In this document: positions 4,907-14,586 of the stretch, in pieces
Layout of the letters: every line of letters starts with the position of its first letter
How positions within the stretch are numbered: position 1 is the first letter of the stretch
Virus record (IMG/VR): IMGVR_UViG_3300032308_001587
Span: 1-24,325 of that record
Strand: one strand, 5' to 3'
DNA: 24,325 nt
From: a virus
Translations under genes and position numbers: made by a program
The notes under the pieces: model-generated
What the model was told of the DNA's origin: nothing
The model's database searches: none
What the model saw: the letters and a program-made list of their open reading frames with translations, nothing else

Positions 4907-5626
4907 ATGTCAACTAGCATGGATTTTCCAGGGAAGTCTAAAAAATATTCAGACAATGTAAACAACTCTTATCAACTTGAGCAATCAGTTTCTTTTATAG
5001 CTGTACCTGGACCACAAGGAGAACAGGGCCCAAAGGGTGATAAAGGCGATTCTGGACCAGAAGGTAAACAAGGACCACAGGGAGAGCCTGGAAAGCCTGG
5101 TAAAGATGGAAAAAACGGTAGAGATGGAATAGCAGGAGAAAGCAGCTTGTCTCCATCAGGTCAAAGAACTGGTTGGGCTCTTTATACAAATAAAGATCAA
5201 AAAGATATTACTCTTGGTGCAACAAAAGGAAATGACGGCTGGGTTAGCTTTAGCTTTGACTGTAGGGGCAAAAACAATGAACTTTATTTACCCGAAGATA
5301 ACGTTTCGTTATATAATTCACAATCACAAAAATTAAACCTTAAAGCACTAAAGGTTGGATCAATTGTAACAGTACGTTATGATATTATTCTAACTACCTT
5401 TACCAACAACACTGAGGTTTGGTTTAGAACCTATATACCAGAGTCTGATTTTTGGCCTACTACCTTTGCTGGAAACCTAAAATATCAGTTCTCATACGAC
5501 ATGTCACTAGAGCACACCTTTTTTATAGAAAATGACATGGTTAGAAACTATGGTGGGTTGCCACAAATATTGACAGATAATGATGCTTCAATGGTTGCCA
5601 AATCCATTTATATATCTGTTAGATAA
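4907..5626 (+). CDS. collagen-like tail fibre protein
   Basis: 239 residues. Residues 35-79 are 15 Gly-X-Y triplets without a break (from GPQGEQGPKGDKGDSG to GRDGIAGES), which would form a collagen triple helix. Two triplets, GEP and GKP, put Pro in the Y position, the classic target of prolyl-4-hydroxylase. The C-terminal 155 residues are beta-rich with aromatic residues and probably form a trimeric receptor-binding or trimerisation domain. Collagen-like segments are common in phage fibres. Start: ATG 4907, with an in-frame ATG at 4919 as alternative; neither has a strong ribosome site, so coupling to the 28-residue gene is likely. A row of dioxygenases begins 1.2 kb downstream. Confidence 0.75.
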   Translation: MSTSMDFPGKSKKYSDNVNNSYQLEQSVSFIAVPGPQGEQGPKGDKGDSGPEGKQGPQGEPGKPGKDGKNGRDGIAGESSLSPSGQRTGWALYTNKDQKDITLGATKGNDGWVSFSFDCRGKNNELYLPEDNVSLYNSQSQKLNLKALKVGSIVTVRYDIILTTFTNNTEVWFRTYIPESDFWPTTFAGNLKYQFSYDMSLEHTFFIENDMVRNYGGLPQILTDNDASMVAKSIYISVR

Positions 5627-5666: not shown

Positions 5667-6662
5667 ATGAGCCCAAAAAATACTGGTACAACAGATTCTT
5701 CAAAAAAGTCCGTTCCAAACGCACCAGTAATTGGAGCAGTTACAGTACAAGGATCTGGACGCTTGTTTACAGCAGGTGGACAAGTTTCTGTAGCTTTTAC
5801 AGCTCCTTCTTATGATGGCAAAATGCCAATTATTGACTACACAGTTACATCCAATACTGGTAGTTTTACAGCAACAGGTGCAAGCTCACCAATAGTTGTT
5901 ACAGGAATGTCAACTTCTGGAACTCCAGCAAATTATACTTTTACCGTTACTGCAAGAAACGCAGTTGGATCTTCAGCAGCATCTGCAGCATCTTCAGCAG
6001 TTGTTCCAACATCTAGACCAGCTCAAGTAACAATTGGAACAGCATCAGTTAATGGAACAACTGGAATTGTAAGTATTCCATTTACAAACCTTACATCTGC
6101 ACAAATTGGAAACTCAGCATTAACTACTCCAAACTACACAGTGACTTCTACTTCTGGAAAAACAGCAACTGGCTCAGGTACTCCACTTAGTATTACAGAA
6201 ACAACAGCAGGAACATATACATATACAGTTATTGCAACAAATGCAAACGGTAATTCTCCAGCATCTAATGCATCTAACCAAGTTGTTGTTACACTAGGGC
6301 CGTTCTTCCCACCATTCTTTCCGTTCTTTCCTTTCTTCCCTCCATTCTTCCCACCGTTCTTCCCACCGTTCTTCCCATTCTTCCCACCGTTCTTCCCACC
6401 GTTCTTCCCATTCTTCCCATTCTTCCCGTTCTTCCCACCGTTCTTCCCATTCTTCCCGTTCTTCCCATTCTTTCCTCCATTCTTCCCATTCTTCCCGTTC
6501 TTCCCATTCTTCCCACCGTTCTTCCCGTACTTCCCATTCTTCCCGTTCTTCCCACCGTTCTTTCCGTACTTCCCAGCCTTCCAGCCAATTCCACCGTTCT
6601 TCCCTGGATTTGGACCAACAGCACCGTTCTTCCCATACTTCACACTACCAGGTGTAGTATAA
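5667..6662 (+). CDS. Fn3-like fibre protein with an FFP-repeat tail
   Basis: 331 residues in three parts. Residues about 18-113 and 117-209 are two fibronectin-III-like domains (for example ANYTFTVTARNAVGSS and GTYTYTVIATNANGNSP, the usual F/G-strand ends). Residues 211 to about 310 are almost only Phe and Pro, in units FFP and FFPP with a few Tyr variants, then a short tail (PTAPFFPYFTLPGVV). Fn3 domains in phages are found on capsid, tail and fibre surfaces, where they bind cell-surface sugars. The Phe-Pro tail is very hydrophobic and, if exposed, might bind membranes or lipids or bundle with itself. The opposite strand is also open over the repeat (Gly-Lys-Asn-Gly), but the Fn3 domains show which strand is coding. 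A terminator follows. Confidence 0.75.
   Translation: MSPKNTGTTDSSKKSVPNAPVIGAVTVQGSGRLFTAGGQVSVAFTAPSYDGKMPIIDYTVTSNTGSFTATGASSPIVVTGMSTSGTPANYTFTVTARNAVGSSAASAASSAVVPTSRPAQVTIGTASVNGTTGIVSIPFTNLTSAQIGNSALTTPNYTVTSTSGKTATGSGTPLSITETTAGTYTYTVIATNANGNSPASNASNQVVVTLGPFFPPFFPFFPFFPPFFPPFFPPFFPFFPPFFPPFFPFFPFFPFFPPFFPFFPFFPFFPPFFPFFPFFPFFPPFFPYFPFFPFFPPFFPYFPAFQPIPPFFPGFGPTAPFFPYFTLPGVV
6297..6639 (+). repeat. polypyrimidine FFP/FFPP codon repeat
   Basis: About 340 bp made of 9- and 12-bp units (TTC TTC CCN and TTC TTC CCN CCN), strongly biased to C and T on the plus strand. Units differ mostly at third positions, which suggests repeat expansion followed by drift or selection at the protein level. 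Such tracts are prone to slippage, so copy number may vary among phages. Confidence 0.8.
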
Positions 6663-6817: not shown

Positions 6818-7534
6818 ATGGAAATTTATGATGAAAATGAAAACCCATGGTTTACAAAAGATAGATCAGAAACAATAACAACAAAGGTTGATAGATCTAT
6901 ACCTGAGCACAACATTACAGTAGAAAACCCAGGACTTGGCTTAAACATATATAGAAATGTGTTTTCCGCAGAAGACTCTAAAAGATATATAGAAACCCTT
7001 GAATCTAATCTTTCAACTGGAAAAAAATATAAATGGTCTGAAGCAACAGTTACAAACTCTGCAACACCAATCAAAAGAGCAAGAGACTGTGTAGATTTTA
7101 AGTATAAGCAAGAAAACTTAGGTCCTAGAGATCCATTTAATTCTGAGCTAATTGATTTACATCAAGAAATATATGAGAAGTTAAAACTTTGTATAGATGA
7201 CTATGCAAGGTATTGGGGAATTAATGTTATTTATTACGAAGCATTTAACTTTGTAAAGTATGAAGGAGAAGGAAAGCACTTTAATATTCATGCTGACCAT
7301 GGACCAGCATATAACGCTACAGTGTCTGCAGTTATTTATATCAATGATGATTACGAAGGCGGAGAGATTCAGTTTCCAAGATTAGATGGATATACACTTA
7401 CCCCAAAGGTAGGAGACATTGCAGTGTTCCCATCAAACTATATCTATGAGCATGCATCTCTGCCAATGAAGAGCGGTACAAAGTATTGCGTAGTAGTCAT
7501 GACAGATATAAATGAGCTAGGCCATAAGCAATGA
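6818..7534 (+). CDS. 2OG-Fe(II) dioxygenase (P4H-type), copy 1
   Basis: 238 residues. Enzymes of this family use Fe(II), O2 and 2-oxoglutarate to hydroxylate a substrate. The iron ligands are H158-A-D160 (in HADHG) and H212 (YEHAS); K222, ten residues after the last His, should bind 2-oxoglutarate where most relatives have Arg. INDDYEGGE (175-183) is the typical strand-turn of prolyl-4-hydroxylase-like domains. The closest relative in the window is the gene at 8316 (shared RDCVDFK, EAFNF-x-KY, FPSNY-x-Y-x-H, SGTKY). AAGGGGA before the ATG supports the start. It overlaps the next gene by 4 nt (ATGA). The substrate cannot be read from the sequence. Confidence 0.85.
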   Translation: MEIYDENENPWFTKDRSETITTKVDRSIPEHNITVENPGLGLNIYRNVFSAEDSKRYIETLESNLSTGKKYKWSEATVTNSATPIKRARDCVDFKYKQENLGPRDPFNSELIDLHQEIYEKLKLCIDDYARYWGINVIYYEAFNFVKYEGEGKHFNIHADHGPAYNATVSAVIYINDDYEGGEIQFPRLDGYTLTPKVGDIAVFPSNYIYEHASLPMKSGTKYCVVVMTDINELGHKQ

Positions 7535-8307
7535 CATTAAAGGAAAATATTGCAAAGTTTACAGCCTATAGACCATGGGTTACAAAAGACAGCCCATCTG
7601 TTCCGTCACCAACACAAGCAGTAATTCCACAATGGTACAAGGATGCAGATAGGTTTGCTAAAGATCCCATTGGTGAATACTATAAAGCTACACCCCAGAT
7701 TTGTCCATTTCCTAAAGAAGGAACAAAAGATGATTATGGAAAGATTCCTACATGGAAGGCATGTCCAGCAATCATGGATGCATTTACAACAGGGTATGTA
7801 TTAAAGACTCCTTGTGATATTACTTTTTTTAAAACAGCAGATGGTTCTATAGATGTAAAAATAGAAGATGCACGACATCAAGATTTTTGTAGTAAAAGAA
7901 TGGCAATGCCACAATTTGAGCAACCAAAAGGATTCTACAGAGAACATTTTGCCTGGTATCCAGATTGGGGTCTAGAGTTGCCAGAAGGATACAGCGCATT
8001 ATTCATGACCCCAATGAATCGTTTTGATTTGCCATTTATAAATACTACTGGAGTTGTTGACAATGATAGTGTTCATCTTCTAGGTACCTTTCCATTTTTT
8101 ATTACAGAAGGTTGGGAAGGAACGCTTCCAGCAGGAACGCCATATGTACAGATACTGCCTTTTAAAAGAGAAGATTGGGGCCATGAAATCAAATTTATAG
8201 GCTCAACAGAAATTTATGCTAAAATGATGAGTAATGCAAGTTTTTATAGACAGCCAGATGGTGGAGTTTATAAAAATAAAGTTTGGACAAGAAGAGAATA
8301 TAAATAG
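7531..8307 (+). CDS. DUF6065-like protein, copy 1
   Basis: 258 residues, no enzyme motif that I can name. Blocks: GYVLKTPCDITFF (88-100), WGLELPEGYSALFMTPMNRF (146-165) and GWEGTLPAGTPYVQILPFKR (194-213). The same order of blocks, with weaker identity, is found in the gene at 8993 (GWNLSASQDIEFIWNG; TGL...FTINPVNYF; KAGTPLATIVP), so the two are paralogues. The AGTP-x-x-x-I-x-P block and strand-rich profile suggest a jelly-roll or cupin-like fold. The DUF6065 name is from memory of the family pattern. The 4-nt overlap with the oxygenase implies coupled, near-equal synthesis, so the pair may act as a complex or on one substrate. Confidence 0.55.
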   Translation: MTLKENIAKFTAYRPWVTKDSPSVPSPTQAVIPQWYKDADRFAKDPIGEYYKATPQICPFPKEGTKDDYGKIPTWKACPAIMDAFTTGYVLKTPCDITFFKTADGSIDVKIEDARHQDFCSKRMAMPQFEQPKGFYREHFAWYPDWGLELPEGYSALFMTPMNRFDLPFINTTGVVDNDSVHLLGTFPFFITEGWEGTLPAGTPYVQILPFKREDWGHEIKFIGSTEIYAKMMSNASFYRQPDGGVYKNKVWTRREYK

Positions 8308-8315
8308 GGGGAACT

Positions 8316-8993
8316 ATGCAAACATGGACAGAAAAAATAAACCTTGGTAATGGAATTGTGTGTTACAGGGACGTAATAAAAAAAGACTTCAATGTAATAG
8401 AAAGACTTGAAGAAAATTTGGGTTCGGTTGCTGGATATGGAGAGTTGTCTCCAGAGGGCAACAGATACCATTGGATGCCAGCATACGTTGGGTACCAACA
8501 ACTTATTCCAGACTACAGAGACTGTGTTGATTTTAAATTTAAAAAAACAGATATAGAGCTAGATAAAAGTGAAACATCTTTAAAGCTACAATCTCTTTGG
8601 CAAGATGTATATGATTCTCAGTTCCAGGCAGTTGAAGATTACAGAAAAGATTACAATATTATGGATCTTAAATATTGGGAAGCATTCAACTTTATAAAGT
8701 ATGGTCCAGGACAGCACTTCATGGAGCATCATGATCATGGGTATTCTTATAATTGTACAGTCTCTCTTGTTGCATATATTAATGATGACTATGAAGGTGG
8801 AGAATTGTATTTTAGATTGCAAGATTTAAAGATTAAGCCAAAAGCTGGCGACCTATATATATTCCCATCAAACTATATGTATCCTCATCAAGCAATGCCA
8901 GTAGAGTCTGGAACAAAGTATTCTATTGTTACTATGTTGGATTATAATAAAAAGTTTCATACTCCAGAAATGTTTTCTCAGGATAATATGTAA
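8316..8993 (+). CDS. 2OG-Fe(II) dioxygenase (P4H-type), copy 2
   Basis: 225 residues. Iron ligands H138-H-D140 (in HHDHG) and H191 (YPHQA), with K201 as the likely 2-oxoglutarate ligand. It aligns closely with the oxygenase at 6818 over the whole catalytic domain, including the unusual Lys and an extra His after the Asp. It differs at the N-terminus, which is shorter by about 20 residues. ATAGGGGGA is the ribosome site; the gap to the previous gene is 8 nt. Its stop overlaps the start of the second DUF6065-like gene, repeating the arrangement of the pair before it. Confidence 0.85.
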   Translation: MQTWTEKINLGNGIVCYRDVIKKDFNVIERLEENLGSVAGYGELSPEGNRYHWMPAYVGYQQLIPDYRDCVDFKFKKTDIELDKSETSLKLQSLWQDVYDSQFQAVEDYRKDYNIMDLKYWEAFNFIKYGPGQHFMEHHDHGYSYNCTVSLVAYINDDYEGGELYFRLQDLKIKPKAGDLYIFPSNYMYPHQAMPVESGTKYSIVTMLDYNKKFHTPEMFSQDNM

Positions 8994-9721
8994 TGCTAAA
9001 CATATCTGTTGAAAGATTTCCAGACTCAAAAATTATTATATCTCCAATGTCAATAAAAAGAGATTGGATGGATGTTACTCCAGAAAAACATGCATACAGA
9101 TGTTTTCCAGTAACACAAGCTAATATGGTTGGGTGGAATCTATCAGCTAGTCAAGACATTGAATTTATTTGGAACGGTATAAATGATACTAGTTCAGAAA
9201 ATGTTAAAATAACCAAAGGTTCACAGTTCACCTATACTGGAAGAGGTCAATCAACTGTAAGTATACACACTGGCTTGACCTTTAGGTCAGAACAAAATGT
9301 CAGTATGTTTACAATTAATCCAGTCAATTATTTTAATGAAGATTTTGAAACAATGTCTTCTTTGATTAGCACATCTTGGCTAGATACTGCTTTTCCACTA
9401 GCAATTAAGGCAAGATCTGCCAATAAAAAAATTAACATAAAGGCAGGAACACCTCTTGCTACAATAGTTCCAATTTCTTTAACAGCAATGGATAATACAT
9501 CAATTCAAATATTTGACTACGAAGATATAGATCGTAGCAGAGAAAAAGCCCATAAGTCATACGGCGAGGCTGCACAAAAAATAAATCAGTCTGGTGAGTG
9601 GACTGATTGGTACAGGGATGCAGTTAACGAAAAAGGAGAAAGCAAGGGATCACATGAAACAAAGGTATTACGTCTTTCTGTAACAGATAATACATCAAAT
9701 AAAGGAAATGGTATAATCTAA
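8993..9721 (+). CDS. DUF6065-like protein, copy 2
   Basis: 242 residues, ATG 8993 overlapping the preceding stop. The N-terminal part, DWMDVTPEKHAYRCFPVTQ (24-42), ANMVGWNL and WNG, matches the pattern I associate with DUF6065 (W-M-D-x-T-P...A-Y-R-C-x-P...A-N...G-W). The second half has TGLTFRSEQN, FTINPVNYF and IKAGTPLATIVPI. The C-terminal 70 residues are charged and helical (DRSREKAHKSYGEAAQ). No known reaction. Paralogue of the 7531 gene and, like it, placed directly after a Lys-type oxygenase. Its last codons contain the TATAAT of the next gene. Confidence 0.6.
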   Translation: MLNISVERFPDSKIIISPMSIKRDWMDVTPEKHAYRCFPVTQANMVGWNLSASQDIEFIWNGINDTSSENVKITKGSQFTYTGRGQSTVSIHTGLTFRSEQNVSMFTINPVNYFNEDFETMSSLISTSWLDTAFPLAIKARSANKKINIKAGTPLATIVPISLTAMDNTSIQIFDYEDIDRSREKAHKSYGEAAQKINQSGEWTDWYRDAVNEKGESKGSHETKVLRLSVTDNTSNKGNGII

Positions 9722-9723: not shown

Positions 9724-10398
9724 ATGGAAAAAGAAAATGCCTCTGTTGTAGTTAGAAAACCATCACTAACCCCATCTGGCTGGTTTGGCAGCGGTAAAGA
9801 AATGATTATTGAGTTAGAAAATTTTATGACTCAAGATGAAATGGACTTTTTAGAAAAAGCTGCAAAGTCTTTGACAATATGGGATGTAACACAAAGCCAT
9901 GTAAATGAAAATGGAACAGTGGTTTATGACTCAGACTATTGGAAAGATAGAGTTGCAACTCAGCCAACCTTAGATAAAAATGATCCAAACATATCACCAG
10001 TAATTGCTGGACTATTTCAAAGACTACAGCCTATAGTTGAAGAGTTTTATAAGGTAAAGGTTATTCCTACTGGAACAACTATTGTTAAATGGCTACCAGG
10101 ACAATTTCAAAAGCCACACGCAGACAAAGAATTGCATGAAGGACCAGACGCTGGGCTTCCAAATGATTTCCCAAACTATGATCTTTCAAGCCTTTTTTAT
10201 TTAAATGAAGACTATGAAGGCGGAGAATTGTACTTCCCAAATCAAGGCGTTCAGTTCAAACCTAAGAAGGGCGCTGCTTATTTTTTTCCAGGGGATATGA
10301 ATTATATTCACGGAGTAACAGAGATTAAGAGTGGTATTAGGTATACCTGCCCATTCTTTTGGGAAATTACAGAACACACTGGAGATAGGAAACCATAA
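9724..10398 (+). CDS. 2OG-Fe(II) dioxygenase (P4H-type), copy 3
   Basis: 224 residues. Iron ligands H132-A-D134 (KPHADK) and H196 (YIHGV); R206 (SGIRY) is the canonical 2-oxoglutarate ligand. LNEDYEGGELYFP (160-172) is the family core. The insert between D134 and the next strand (LHEGPDAGLPNDFPNYD) is longer than in copies 1 and 2 and would line the active-site entrance, so the substrate is probably different. No ribosome site; the start lies 6 nt after TATAAT. Confidence 0.85.
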   Translation: MEKENASVVVRKPSLTPSGWFGSGKEMIIELENFMTQDEMDFLEKAAKSLTIWDVTQSHVNENGTVVYDSDYWKDRVATQPTLDKNDPNISPVIAGLFQRLQPIVEEFYKVKVIPTGTTIVKWLPGQFQKPHADKELHEGPDAGLPNDFPNYDLSSLFYLNEDYEGGELYFPNQGVQFKPKKGAAYFFPGDMNYIHGVTEIKSGIRYTCPFFWEITEHTGDRKP

Positions 10399-10399
10399 A

Positions 10400-11293
10400 A
10401 TGAGCAAAGACTTTACTTTTAAAGAGATTTATCCAAATATTTTTGTATACAATAATGTTTTTGAAGATCCAGAAAAAATGTATAAGATTGCAAAAGATTC
10501 TGTAAACAATTACGATGATGCAATTTGGGACAGCTGGCAAGAATGGTATGACTTTGGTCATAAAATAGAAAACTTTGGATTATTTTTTGATAAAACAGCT
10601 ACAAGCCTTAAAATATTATCAGACATAACACCAACCACAAAAGTTCAAGAAGATCAAAGATATTTTATTACTGAGTTAGTTAAGGGTTTTCACCTAGTAA
10701 ATAACCACTATATAGAACGTCATAATTTTCCAGTACATAGAGAAAAAAATGTAACTGTTGAAGCTAATGGCGAAACTCAAGCAAAGTGGAACTGGACTGG
10801 ACCCTCTTTATGCAGATATTTTGTTGAGTCTGAACTTTCTAAGACAAATGAGGGAGAAGACAAGTTAGCCATGAGATATCATAGCGATTATATTAGAGAA
10901 GTAGTAAAAAGTCCAGGATATAAGTTTGCCTTAACCACAACAACATATCTAAATGATAATTATTTAAAAGGCGGAATTGATTTTGCTGTTGGAGACAAAC
11001 TAATTAACTATAAGCCAAAAGCTGGAGACTTTCTTGTTTTTCCTTCAGGCCACCCAGACTATTCTACTGAAGAAGGAGAAGTTTATTTGCATGCTGCAGA
11101 AAATTGTTCAGTAAATGAAAAATTTTTTACAAGAATGTATTGGACAGTATATGAAGATGCATCAGAGGAATGGAAAGAAAAAAGTCAGATTTTTGGTGAT
11201 AAATGGCCAGAAGAACTTCAACGACTTCAACATCAGTATAGGATAGACCATCCAGCAAGAAACTTCATAGAGGGGGCAACAAGAATCAAATGA
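10400..11293 (+). CDS. 2OG-Fe(II) dioxygenase (P4H-type), copy 4
   Basis: 297 residues, the largest of the set. Iron ligands H161-S-D163 (RYHSDY) and H231 (YLHAAENC); K241 (ten residues later) or R245 would bind 2-oxoglutarate. LNDNYLKGGIDF replaces the usual DDYEGGE. About 100 extra residues before the catalytic core, with a Trp-rich stretch (WDSWQEWYDF), suggest a distinct substrate domain. The frame is open to 10331, but the ATG at 10400, one base after the preceding stop and following TAGGAAA, gives the expected start MSKDFTFKEIYPN. It overlaps the next gene by 4 nt (ATGA). Confidence 0.8.
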   Translation: MSKDFTFKEIYPNIFVYNNVFEDPEKMYKIAKDSVNNYDDAIWDSWQEWYDFGHKIENFGLFFDKTATSLKILSDITPTTKVQEDQRYFITELVKGFHLVNNHYIERHNFPVHREKNVTVEANGETQAKWNWTGPSLCRYFVESELSKTNEGEDKLAMRYHSDYIREVVKSPGYKFALTTTTYLNDNYLKGGIDFAVGDKLINYKPKAGDFLVFPSGHPDYSTEEGEVYLHAAENCSVNEKFFTRMYWTVYEDASEEWKEKSQIFGDKWPEELQRLQHQYRIDHPARNFIEGATRIK

Positions 11294-12036
11294 ACCTTAA
11301 AAATAAAAATAGAATAACAAAAGACATTGTTGTTTTTGAAGATTTTTTAACTAGAGAAGATTGTGAAAAGATAGTTAAAGCGCTAGATGCTCAAGCAGAA
11401 AATGGAAAGATTTCTTGGATGCCTATATCTTTTTATGAGTCATATTCTTCTGTACTTCCACAAGATAATGATCAGGAAGTCATTGACGCTGGTCTTAAGC
11501 CAACAATTTTTTCAGACATTGAAAAAATGATGCCTGAAGCAATTGCGTCTATACATGATTTAGATCCAAAAATAATTTCAAAAATTGGATACCACACTCA
11601 AAAGTGGGAACCTGGAGCATATGCAAGAGTTCACTCTGACAATACAGATGAAAAAGGAAACTCTGGAGCATTTACAAGAAGTAGGTATGCAGGTTTTCTT
11701 TATCTAAATGATAACTTTGAAGGTGGTATTCTTAGATTTCCAAGTCAAAATTTAGAGATACAGCCAAAGGTTGGAATGCTTGCTGTATTTGACGGGGGAT
11801 TTAACAATATGCACGAAGTATCCCTCATTACAAGTGGAGTAAGATATACAATAGGCTCATTCTGGGACGATAGAGAAGAAGATGCATATCCACAAGAAGT
11901 AAGAGATGCATGGGCAGAAGAGATGAAAGCCACCAGAGCACAACAAGAAATTGAAAGAGCAGAATGGCAAGATCTACTAAAACAGGGCTGGAAGATTGAT
12001 GCTCATGGAAATAAATACAAAGCAGAGGATATATAA
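11290..12036 (+). CDS. 2OG-Fe(II) dioxygenase (P4H-type), copy 5
   Basis: 248 residues. Iron ligands H115-S-D117 (RVHSDN) and H175 (NMHEV); R185 (SGVRY) binds 2-oxoglutarate. The core strand LYLNDNFEGGILRFP (137-151) is clear. After residue 195 there is a charged helical tail (about 50 residues, rich in Glu, Lys and Trp) absent from the other copies, perhaps for contact with a partner. The start overlaps the previous stop by 4 nt, so translation is coupled. Confidence 0.85.
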   Translation: MNLKNKNRITKDIVVFEDFLTREDCEKIVKALDAQAENGKISWMPISFYESYSSVLPQDNDQEVIDAGLKPTIFSDIEKMMPEAIASIHDLDPKIISKIGYHTQKWEPGAYARVHSDNTDEKGNSGAFTRSRYAGFLYLNDNFEGGILRFPSQNLEIQPKVGMLAVFDGGFNNMHEVSLITSGVRYTIGSFWDDREEDAYPQEVRDAWAEEMKATRAQQEIERAEWQDLLKQGWKIDAHGNKYKAEDI

Positions 12037-12037
12037 A

Positions 12038-12700
12038 GTGACAGTATTTTTAAAAAAAGAATTTGAAGATGCTGGATATGATGTTGAAGTTTTTCATGAT
12101 CATGTTTTATTTATAAAAAACTTTTTAAAAGAAGAAGAGCTACAGACAATATTAAAAATAATTGAAACAACTAGTGAAGAAGATTGGTCAATAGAGTATA
12201 CAAAAAACCTTGCCAGATTCTGCATGGAAAAATTTGGAAGAGACGATGTAGAAAACCTGGTTGCAGAGGGTAAGTTTGAAATAACTAAAGGCTGGCAAGA
12301 TAAAAACTTAAATATTACACGTGAAAAAATAAGCAGCGCACTTCAAAGAAGACTTGGTGAATTAATGAAGATAGCAGATCCATCGCTAGAGCTTGGTGGA
12401 TTTGGAACTCTTCAAAGAATGCAAAAGGGTGTTGAGTTAAAGTCACATACAGATCAGCATACGGATCCATCTATTAGGTATGCTGCTATACTTTATATTA
12501 ATGATGACTATAAAGATGGAACTTTATTCTTTAAAAATAAAGAAAATTCAGATTTAAGGCCAAAGCCAGGAACACTGCTTATTTTTCCAGGTAACGAAGA
12601 ATACGAGCATGGAGTAAGGCCTGTAGGAGAAGGACCTATAAGATATGTTACTGTAGGTTTCATGAAGGTAACAGGCTTTTATGAAAACAATAAATACTAA
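12038..12700 (+). CDS. 2OG-Fe(II) dioxygenase (P4H-type), copy 6
   Basis: 220 residues from a GTG start. Iron ligands are H137-T-D139 or H141-T-D143 (the sequence SHTDQHTD holds two HxD motifs) and H191 (YEHGV); R202 (PIRY) binds 2-oxoglutarate. Core YINDDYKDGTLFF (153-165). The frame is open back to 11996 inside the previous gene, but GTG 12038 after GCAGAGGAT, one base past the previous stop, is the natural start. The doubled HxD is unusual; alignment would show which is used. Confidence 0.8.
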   Translation: MTVFLKKEFEDAGYDVEVFHDHVLFIKNFLKEEELQTILKIIETTSEEDWSIEYTKNLARFCMEKFGRDDVENLVAEGKFEITKGWQDKNLNITREKISSALQRRLGELMKIADPSLELGGFGTLQRMQKGVELKSHTDQHTDPSIRYAAILYINDDYKDGTLFFKNKENSDLRPKPGTLLIFPGNEEYEHGVRPVGEGPIRYVTVGFMKVTGFYENNKY

Positions 12701-12711
12701 GGAGATATAAG

Positions 12712-13341
12712 ATGGACAAAGAAATACTTGAGGAAAAAGTTTACTATTACACAAACGTAATAGAAGACCCTGCAAAGCTTGTTGAGGCAATTGAAAATGA
12801 CAACAAGGATGCTTGGGGAGAGTGGGCTGCTTGTAGTGGTCAGCACTATGTCTATGGCTCAGATAAGACTATTGCTTTGACTCCAGGCTTAGATGAAAAA
12901 AATAAGTATATCTACGAAACACTACAAAAAGCATTTGATGTTGTAGCAAGAGATTATGCTAAAGCCCAAGGAATTACAGAAGAGCCAAAGCTTTTCCCAC
13001 AGTATCCAATTAAAAAGTATCAACCAGGCACTTACATGGGAGCACACTTTGATCAGCAAGAGGGTGATGAAAGACTCAAGGTTTCTTTTGTTATGTACCT
13101 AAATGATGACTACGAAGGTGGAGAAATATCTTTCACTATTGCTTCACCAGATGGTGTTTTACAAAACGCAAGCCCAGCATCAGATTTTGCAGAAGCAGAA
13201 AAGAATAAAAACTATACTTTTGCTGTGAAACCAAAAGCAGGAAGCGTTATTGTCTTTCCTCCATCACCACCATATCATCATACTGCTCACTTGGTCAAGA
13301 GTGGTGAAAAGATTATGGTTCCACAACACTGGATTCATTAA
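12712..13341 (+). CDS. 2OG-Fe(II) dioxygenase (P4H-type), copy 7
   Basis: 209 residues. Iron ligands H112-F-D114 (GAHFDQQ) and probably H190 (in PPYHHTAH, where H189 and H193 are alternatives); K200 is ten residues after H190. Core LNDDYEGGEIS (130-140). An insert of about 25 residues, SPDGVLQNASPASDFAEAEK, lies between core strands. AAGGAGAT before the ATG is the best ribosome site in the operon. It ends one base before the dehydrogenase start. Confidence 0.8.
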   Translation: MDKEILEEKVYYYTNVIEDPAKLVEAIENDNKDAWGEWAACSGQHYVYGSDKTIALTPGLDEKNKYIYETLQKAFDVVARDYAKAQGITEEPKLFPQYPIKKYQPGTYMGAHFDQQEGDERLKVSFVMYLNDDYEGGEISFTIASPDGVLQNASPASDFAEAEKNKNYTFAVKPKAGSVIVFPPSPPYHHTAHLVKSGEKIMVPQHWIH

Positions 13342-13342
13342 T

Positions 13343-14011
13343 TTGAAAACAGCAATAGTCACGGGGGCTAGCAAGGGCGTTGGCTATGCTACAGTTAAGC
13401 TTTTGTCTGAAAATGGATATAAGGTAATTGCTGTATCAAGAAACCTGTCAAAGGTTAATGAGCTTATATCTGACAATGTTGAGACGTATCAGTTAGACAT
13501 CACAAGTGAGTCTCAGATTAAAGATTTTGCTGAAAAGTATAAGGACATAACCCTAGACCTGCTTGTAAACAATGCAGGTGGAGGATCAGGTCCTACCTTT
13601 ATTATTAATGAGACAATGGATAATTTTAGAAGGGCATATGATATAAATGTATCAGGCCCAATGTATCTTTCTCAACTTTTTGTTCCATGCATGAAAAGGT
13701 CTAAGTCACCAACCATTATATTTGTAAGCTCACTAGGAGGCAAGGTGCCATATCGTAGTGGAGGTAACTATATAAATGCTAAAAGAGGAATGATGGCCTT
13801 GGTTGATACAATGAGGCTAGAGTTCCCTGAGCATGGAATTAAAATAACTGAAATATGTCCAGGAACAATTGACACACAAGTAGAAAAGCGTGAGATAGCA
13901 TTAACCGCTGAAGATCTTGCAGAGTCTATTAGATGGGTTTCAGAGCTGCCAAGCCACTTCAATATTAATCATATTGAAATGAACCACATAAGCAGCAACA
14001 AATTTTCTTAG
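13343..14011 (+). CDS. short-chain dehydrogenase/reductase
   Basis: 222 residues, a complete classical SDR. It has the NAD(P)-binding TGASKGVG (7-14), NNAG (76-79), N102, catalytic S129 or S130, Y143-x-x-x-K147 and PGTIDT (173-178). SRN after the second strand (32-34) suggests NADPH. SDRs oxidise or reduce alcohol/ketone groups, so this one could act on a hydroxyl group made by the oxygenases, on a sugar, or on a host metabolite. The start is TTG at 13343, one base after the previous stop; the frame is open to 13250, but that extra part overlaps the oxygenase and is not SDR-like. It is the last gene of the operon and meets the lysozyme gene tail to tail with 2 bp between. Confidence 0.8.
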   Translation: MKTAIVTGASKGVGYATVKLLSENGYKVIAVSRNLSKVNELISDNVETYQLDITSESQIKDFAEKYKDITLDLLVNNAGGGSGPTFIINETMDNFRRAYDINVSGPMYLSQLFVPCMKRSKSPTIIFVSSLGGKVPYRSGGNYINAKRGMMALVDTMRLEFPEHGIKITEICPGTIDTQVEKREIALTAEDLAESIRWVSELPSHFNINHIEMNHISSNKFS

Positions 14012-14013
14012 AT

Positions 14014-14586
14014 TTAGGAAGGAAACCTAGTCATCCAAACCTTAGTCTTTGGAGTAATTCCATGCCAAGCAGACCAGTTCTTTCCACCATTACTCATATG
14101 ATATGCAACCTGTGCATTAATAACAGGGTTTAACAGCTCACTGTTAAAGTTTATGCCAAACTTATCTTGACGAACTTCTTTTAGCATTCCAAGCATATTG
14201 ATTTGGAATATACCGTAAGAGTTGTCACCAGTCTTAACGTTGCCATTAAAAGCTAGTGGACGGCCATTAGACTCTTTCTTAGCTACCGCCCAAGCCTTTA
14301 CTAGGCCCTGGCCACGAAAACCAACGGCATGCAAAAGCTCCTTTAGCTGACGATCTGTAAGACTAGCAGCATCTTGATATTTATGTAGAACATCTAAGTT
14401 CTTTTTTACTGCTACCAAACTTTTAGGCTTAGAAACCAAAAAAACCGCCTTGGCGGTTGAAGGTTCAGCTACAGCTGGTTTGCTTAGATTATTTTCAGTA
14501 CTTAAAGCATTAGCTGCATTACTTAGTGGTGCAATAAGCCCAAGTGCAGCAAGGATTCCAATCCAAATCTTTTTATCTCTTCTCAT
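14014..14586 (-). CDS. secreted lysozyme-like transglycosylase
   Basis: 190 residues. MRRDKKIWIGILAALGLIAP with ANA at 27 is a signal peptide, so the enzyme is exported. The domain at about 95-180 is a goose-type lysozyme/soluble lytic transglycosylase fold: AKKESNGRP with E105 as the likely acid catalyst, NSYGIFQIN (122-130), NAQVAYHMSNGG and W171/W174. It would cut the glycan chains of peptidoglycan. It might serve lysis, or host wall opening as a tail-associated enzyme. GGAGG before the ATG at 14586 is the ribosome site. It is a lone minus-strand gene between plus-strand operons. A perfect terminator-like hairpin lies in codons 43-50. Confidence 0.8.
   Translation of the reverse strand: MRRDKKIWIGILAALGLIAPLSNAANALSTENNLSKPAVAEPSTAKAVFLVSKPKSLVAVKKNLDVLHKYQDAASLTDRQLKELLHAVGFRGQGLVKAWAVAKKESNGRPLAFNGNVKTGDNSYGIFQINMLGMLKEVRQDKFGINFNSELLNPVINAQVAYHMSNGGKNWSAWHGITPKTKVWMTRFPS
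14438..14458 (-). terminator. terminator-like hairpin inside the lysozyme gene
   Basis: On the minus strand AACCGCC-AA-GGCGGTT (14458-14443) is a perfect palindrome run into TTTTTTT (14444-14438). It falls about 130 nt after the start codon and between the signal peptide and the catalytic domain. The codons used (ACC GCC AAG GCG) are GC-rich for this genome, which suggests selection for the structure. Confidence 0.6.

Follow-up and report, generated by a model that had tools for sequence, protein, structure and literature searches.

DUF6065-Related Proteins of Predicted dUTPase-Like Fold Accompany Prolyl 4-Hydroxylase-Type Oxygenases in a Conserved Phage Gene Cassette

RESULTS

Gene content of the phage locus

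The DNA analyzed here, hereafter the window, is a 24.3-kb contig (24,325 nucleotides) of a freshwater phage. The plus-strand genes OxyA (6818-7534), DufA (7531-8307), OxyB (8316-8993), and DufB (8993-9721) follow one another, with overlaps of 4 nt between OxyA and DufA and of 1 nt between OxyB and DufB, as described in the initial annotation of the locus. OxyA and OxyB encode 2-oxoglutarate (2OG)-Fe(II) oxygenases of the prolyl 4-hydroxylase (P4H) type; their PF13640 domain scores (44.3 bits, E = 3.7e-11, and 57.7 bits, E = 2.5e-15, respectively, against a cut-off of 27) and their HxD...H...K ligands both place them in this family. A third 2OG oxygenase, Oxy5 (9724-10398, plus strand; PF13640, 1.7e-9), is the next cassette gene, and the five genes from OxyA to Oxy5 are nearly contiguous, with overlaps or gaps of only a few bases. 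Four more 2OG-type oxygenases of PF13640 occupy 10400-13341 on the same strand (starts at 10400, 11290, 12050, and 12712), the gene at 10400-11293 scoring under the Pfam cut-off and the other three over it. The cassette ends with a plus-strand short-chain dehydrogenase (13304-14011; PF00106, 5.9e-43), whose position is conserved. A minus-strand open reading frame (ORF) (14014-14586) separates the cassette from the genes that follow; it resembles transglycosylases only weakly (phrog_34720, E = 0.017).

Two plus-strand genes upstream of OxyA encode candidate virion substrates. One is a collagen-like protein with 15 Gly-X-Y triplets (4907-5626; PF01391, 1.4e-8), and the other combines fn3/PKD-like domains, to which the matches are weak, with a Phe-Phe-Pro (FFP) repeat tail (5667-6662).

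OxyA and OxyB are sister oxygenases

OxyA and OxyB are 42% identical over 212 amino acids, and their score of 150 bits makes them the closest pair among the seven oxygenases of the window; the next-best pair scores 73 bits, about half as much. This closeness had been proposed in the initial annotation, as had the shared RDCVDFK, FPSNY, and SGTKY motifs and a Lys ligand for 2OG, all of which we recovered. The iron and 2OG ligands are kept in 85/85 OxyA and 87/90 OxyB homologues, with the Lys ten residues past the distal His, a P4H-type spacing. From these sequence features, OxyA and OxyB would probably act as hydroxylases. In the oxygenase tree, the two form one starred clade (97*), which supports their common origin; its sole other member is the oxygenase of locus L214. 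The L214 contig is binned as Gammaproteobacteria and may be a phage contig. Its OxyA/OxyB-like gene overlaps a DUF6065 gene, and several further 2OG oxygenases are present.

DufA and DufB belong to one remote superfamily

DufB is a clear member of Pfam family DUF6065 (PF19541; 4e-31, 108.7 bits, cut-off 26.6), whereas DufA gave no match to that family at an E value of 1 and is related to it only remotely, by profile comparison. Pairwise, DufA and DufB are barely alike (BLASTP E = 0.021), yet both match phrog_7084 (3.1e-34 for DufA and 5e-9 for DufB), and alignment of the two family profiles gave an hhalign probability of 97% (E = 2.8e-11) over 130 columns with the same order of blocks, just as the initial annotation had described for the proteins at 7531-8307 and 8993-9721. 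The residues that the two lineages have in common comprise one Trp, one Cys, one Gly plus an aromatic residue, one Asn, and two Pro. A search of 50,697 sequenced phage records gave no match for DufB. Distant relatives of DufA, annotated as hypothetical proteins, occur in haloarchaeal tailed viruses; in one of these, Halophage HF1 (L156), the gene lies near a ribonucleotide reductase gene. Our literature search found no paper naming DUF6065.

Both DUF proteins are predicted to adopt a dUTPase-like fold

A dUTPase-like motif pattern was spotted in the DufA and DufB sequences ahead of the structure search. AlphaFold models of DufA and DufB were built as single chains from separate alignments, with pLDDT values of 90.5 and 89.2, respectively. 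For both models, the top PDB matches by Foldseek and VIA were trimeric dUTPases, and the VIA matches listed were all dUTPases. The DufB model matched dUTPases with a Foldseek E value of 1.2e-4 and a VIA Z of 11.2 (rmsd 5.4 over 124 residues), and it fitted 8hrv at 2.5 A over 116 residues; for DufA, the corresponding values were a Foldseek E of 1.2e-3 and a VIA Z of 9.6. Sequence profiles of the DUFs found no relative in the PDB, and hhalign of these profiles against dUTPases was weak (probability 3%), with the alignments falling on dUTPase motifs III and IV. DufA has G-V-V-D-N-D where dUTPases have G-x-I-D-S-D-Y and so keeps an Asp at the catalytic position. DufB has SSLISTSW at motif III, without the catalytic Asp, and the C-terminal GGFG motif of dUTPases is absent from both proteins. 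On these motifs, we rejected the identification of DufA and DufB as dUTPases themselves. Altogether, the predicted models indicate that DufA and DufB are built on a dUTPase-like beta fold.

The four genes travel together in phages, with variable order

Scans of IMG/VR with DufA and DufB as queries returned about 500 relatives each. Among 96 distinct phage loci carrying both DUFs, 86 have the order OxyA-DufA-OxyB-DufB (one of them with an extra DufB) and the others are cut or rearranged; Oxy5 comes after DufB in 95/96. A wider, non-deduplicated set contained OxyA-DufA-OxyB-DufB 156 times, OxyB-DufA-OxyA-DufB six times, OxyA-OxyB-DufB-DufA four times, and OxyA-OxyB-DufA-DufB three times, besides forms with an additional DUF or oxygenase. 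Thus, the four cassette genes travel together; since the orders OxyA-OxyB-DufB-DufA and OxyB-DufA-OxyA-DufB occur, the pairing of oxygenase with DUF is not fixed.

Several loci carry further genes of interest. A third DUF6065 copy, about 21 to 24% identical to DufB, sits just 5' of the cassette in four of them (L033:1544-2305, L109:3059-3802, L137:1417-2148, and L141:3725-4456), and an extra ORF of about 151 amino acids follows DufA or DufB in several loci (e.g., L017:6777-7232, a copy without a Pfam match, and L038:5967-6419). Other phages (L242 to L249; e.g., L243:4330-5723) have two DufA-type genes in tandem, in several cases with a collagen-like protein upstream; OxyA/OxyB-type oxygenases are mostly absent from these phages, and in L245 to L248 an Oxy8-like gene lies two genes downstream. 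Downstream of the tandem genes, L243 has genes for a glycosyltransferase, a sulfotransferase, and a radical-SAM protein, and L249 has one for a glycosyltransferase. This setting is consistent with a broader function in the modification of surface structures.

The two DUF genes come from different branches

In the DUF tree, DufA groups with haloarchaeal-virus proteins, other phage proteins, and two Hyphomicrobiales proteins, and DufB groups with bacterial DUF6065. When DufA and DufB were forced into one clade, the log likelihood was worse by 96.5 (AU P = 0.0004, from quick trees on a remote alignment). These trees argue that the oxygenase was duplicated and that the two DUFs stem from different branches of the superfamily.

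Some bacterial DUF6065 proteins are fusions with 2OG oxygenases of two families

The bacterial set comprised 80 loci fetched by DufB similarity alone, together with loci from a genome survey of one order, in which DUF6065 was present in 31 of 249 genomes. Single distant DUF copies used as queries recovered few loci. DUF6065 is fused to a P4H-type PF13640 domain at seven loci (L173, L191, L203, L221, L234, L237, and L281) and to Cupin_8/JmjC, a different 2OG enzyme family, at five (L211, L166, L199, L175, and L225). The fusions are scattered over the DUF6065 tree and require repeated changes on it (3 and 4; the starred branches alone force fewer). A separate oxygenase adjoins DUF6065 at four loci (L190, L219, L233, and L214). 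Together with the conserved phage cassette, the two kinds of fusion and the direct adjacency lend good support to the role beside a hydroxylase that the initial annotation had envisaged for DUF6065-like proteins. Most bacterial DUF6065 genes (75 of 101 rows) had no fused or adjacent oxygenase and no collagen-like neighbor by the criteria used. A Pfam survey of bacterial neighbors yielded mainly unrelated chromosomal genes, save for collagen, sulfotransferase, and 2OG oxygenase.

Tandem pairs of bacterial DUF6065 genes were seen at L284, L285, L187, L201, and L213. In Ancylobacter (L231:6001-7062), DUF6065 is joined in one protein to PqqD, a domain that features in peptide-modification systems.

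Collagen-like and FFP-repeat genes are linked to the DUF genes

Within the 80 bacterial loci, the only collagen-like genes, one spurious reverse frame aside, immediately precede DUF6065 and share its strand (5 loci), and the survey added four further collagen-like/DUF6065 loci, one of them from a genome already represented. All ten DUF6065 rows with an upstream collagen-like gene form one starred clade, every member of which has that gene. The linkage thus has a single origin and has persisted in genomes of the Brucella, Mesorhizobium, and Kaistia types. Around five collagen-DUF6065 loci, no 2OG family occurred among the 25 of 44 neighboring Pfam families listed.

Among the phage loci (not deduplicated), OxyA is preceded by a collagen-like ORF in 51 of the 83 for which 2.5 kb or more was available; in 64 loci, it is preceded by an FFP-repeat ORF. 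As a test, we scanned IMG/VR with a pattern that encoded nothing but the FFP repeat at the DNA level. Of the loci among the matches listed that had usable downstream DNA (n = 57), a 2OG oxygenase was present in 52 and a DUF6065-type gene in 51, in both cases no more than 4 kb downstream. The FFP repeat tail found in the protein at 5667-6662 is nearly diagnostic of the cassette among the IMG/VR pattern matches listed. Part of this linkage to FFP and collagen-like genes may stem from a genome backbone common to related phages.

DISCUSSION

We propose that the cassette carries out posttranslational hydroxylation of the phage's own fiber proteins with the DUFs as dUTPase-fold hydroxylase partners, a reading to which we assign a probability of about one-half. 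The targets of the P4H-type oxygenases would most likely be prolines in the FFP-repeat and collagen-like proteins encoded upstream. DufA and DufB would be repurposed dUTPase-fold proteins that serve the hydroxylases as dedicated partners, binding the repeat or presenting it, perhaps in trimeric form on trimeric fibers. Catalysis, the substrate, the Oxy-Duf complex, and the noncatalytic adaptor role of the DUFs are elements that we infer. In favor of the proposal, we counted the fusions, the adjacency, the collagen/FFP linkage, the two separate fold models, and the P4H-type ligand spacing; against it, we counted the 75/101 unlinked bacterial rows, the lack of a 2OG family among the Pfam families listed around five collagen-DUF6065 loci, the tandem DufA-type phages that mostly lack these oxygenases, the possibility that a common phage backbone explains the FFP and collagen linkage, and the nonsignificant dUTPase profiles. 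Phages are known to build trimeric collagen-type fibers (PMC3368898), and hydroxylation of (PPG)n collagen-like peptides by a bacterial P4H has been described (PMC8968730); the viral use of such hydroxylases has been termed cryptic (PMC9301287). More broadly, and more tentatively, DUF6065 and its relatives may be new dUTPase-fold partner subunits for 2OG hydroxylases in bacteria and viruses, which in these phages would drive hydroxylation of a previously undescribed FFP-repeat virion protein and a collagen-like fiber.

Alternatively, DUF6065 could itself be an enzyme. As a hydrolase or deaminase of the dUTPase superfamily, it would act on a nucleotide or a similar metabolite, the linked 2OG oxygenase would hydroxylate that compound, and the product of the cassette would be a modified metabolite or nucleotide. 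The predicted dUTPase/dCTP-deaminase fold, an invariant residue set of its own (W, C, G, N, and P) common to both lineages, and the G-V-V-D-N-D of DufA fit such an activity, but the window DufB has lost this motif to SSLISTSW, GGFG is absent, and the genomic links are to hydroxylase, collagen-like, FFP-repeat, and glycosyl-/sulfotransferase genes and not to nucleotide pathways. We therefore consider an enzymatic DUF6065 rather unlikely. It is likewise unlikely that the genes are merely located together in a variable auxiliary island near the tail genes, with oxygenases and DUFs working independently of each other, e.g., on host metabolites or the level of 2-oxoglutarate. T4-like phages have many 2OG oxygenases, about which little is understood, with up to 24 in one cyanophage (PMC9602691), and this cassette has seven in an order that varies; nonetheless, DUF6065 fusions in bacteria involve two kinds of 2OG oxygenase, and the four phage genes stay together despite reshuffling.

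The initial annotation had read the locus as a tandem duplication of an oxygenase-DUF pair. The half of this idea that concerns the oxygenases holds, OxyA and OxyB being sisters, whereas DufA and DufB are not. Neither of the two refuting outcomes named in that annotation was observed, since the DUF profiles match and the oxygenases have a common origin; the idea fails on the phylogeny of the DUFs, which was not among its criteria. A true pair duplication, followed by very fast divergence of the DUFs, would account for OxyA-DufA-OxyB-DufB being the commonest order, for the sister relationship of the oxygenases (97*), and for the homology of the DufA and DufB profiles. Nevertheless, the DUF tree, with kin of DufA in haloarchaeal viruses and two Hyphomicrobiales proteins, the AU test against a DufA-DufB clade (lnL 96.5 worse; P = 0.0004), and the phage gene orders that put OxyA beside OxyB and DufB beside DufA led us to reject it. 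Furthermore, conservation within the cassette is about equal for DUFs and oxygenases, which gives no sign of fast evolution. We regard the pair duplication as very improbable and retain the hydroxylation cassette as the preferred reading.

For both the substrate and the partner of these hydroxylases, the cassette suggests a specific candidate, testable with a few recombinant proteins. DUF6065, an orphan Pfam family, gains a predicted fold and a setting in which it may work, with a hint that the dUTPase fold can serve purposes other than nucleotide chemistry.

Among known systems, the closest in chemistry are the viral and bacterial prolyl 4-hydroxylases (the PBCV-1 P4H cited in PMC9301287 and the Bacillus anthracis P4H of PMC8968730), which share with the cassette the 2OG-Fe(II) fold, the HxD...H...K ligands, and proline-rich or collagen-like candidate substrates. 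In contrast, the phage cassette has seven oxygenases of predicted activity and two putative dUTPase-fold partners; the passages of the two papers considered here mention no partner of this type. The cyanophage 2OG-Fe(II) oxygenases (phrog_61; 24 copies in S-SCSM1) belong to the same oxygenase superfamily in T4-like phages, but relatives of OxyB in sequenced phage records are <60% identical and DufB is unmatched there. With the trimeric dUTPase/dCTP deaminase superfamily, DufA and DufB share the predicted fold and a weak alignment on motifs III and IV; they differ from trimeric dUTPases in having no significant sequence match, no GGFG motif, and extra N- and C-terminal parts, and DufB also lacks the catalytic Asp. 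DufB belongs to PF19541, a family that carries no assigned function, and DufA is a separate lineage outside the reach of Pfam. Viral protein hydroxylation is of a known kind; the predicted fold assignment for the orphan family DUF6065 is new.
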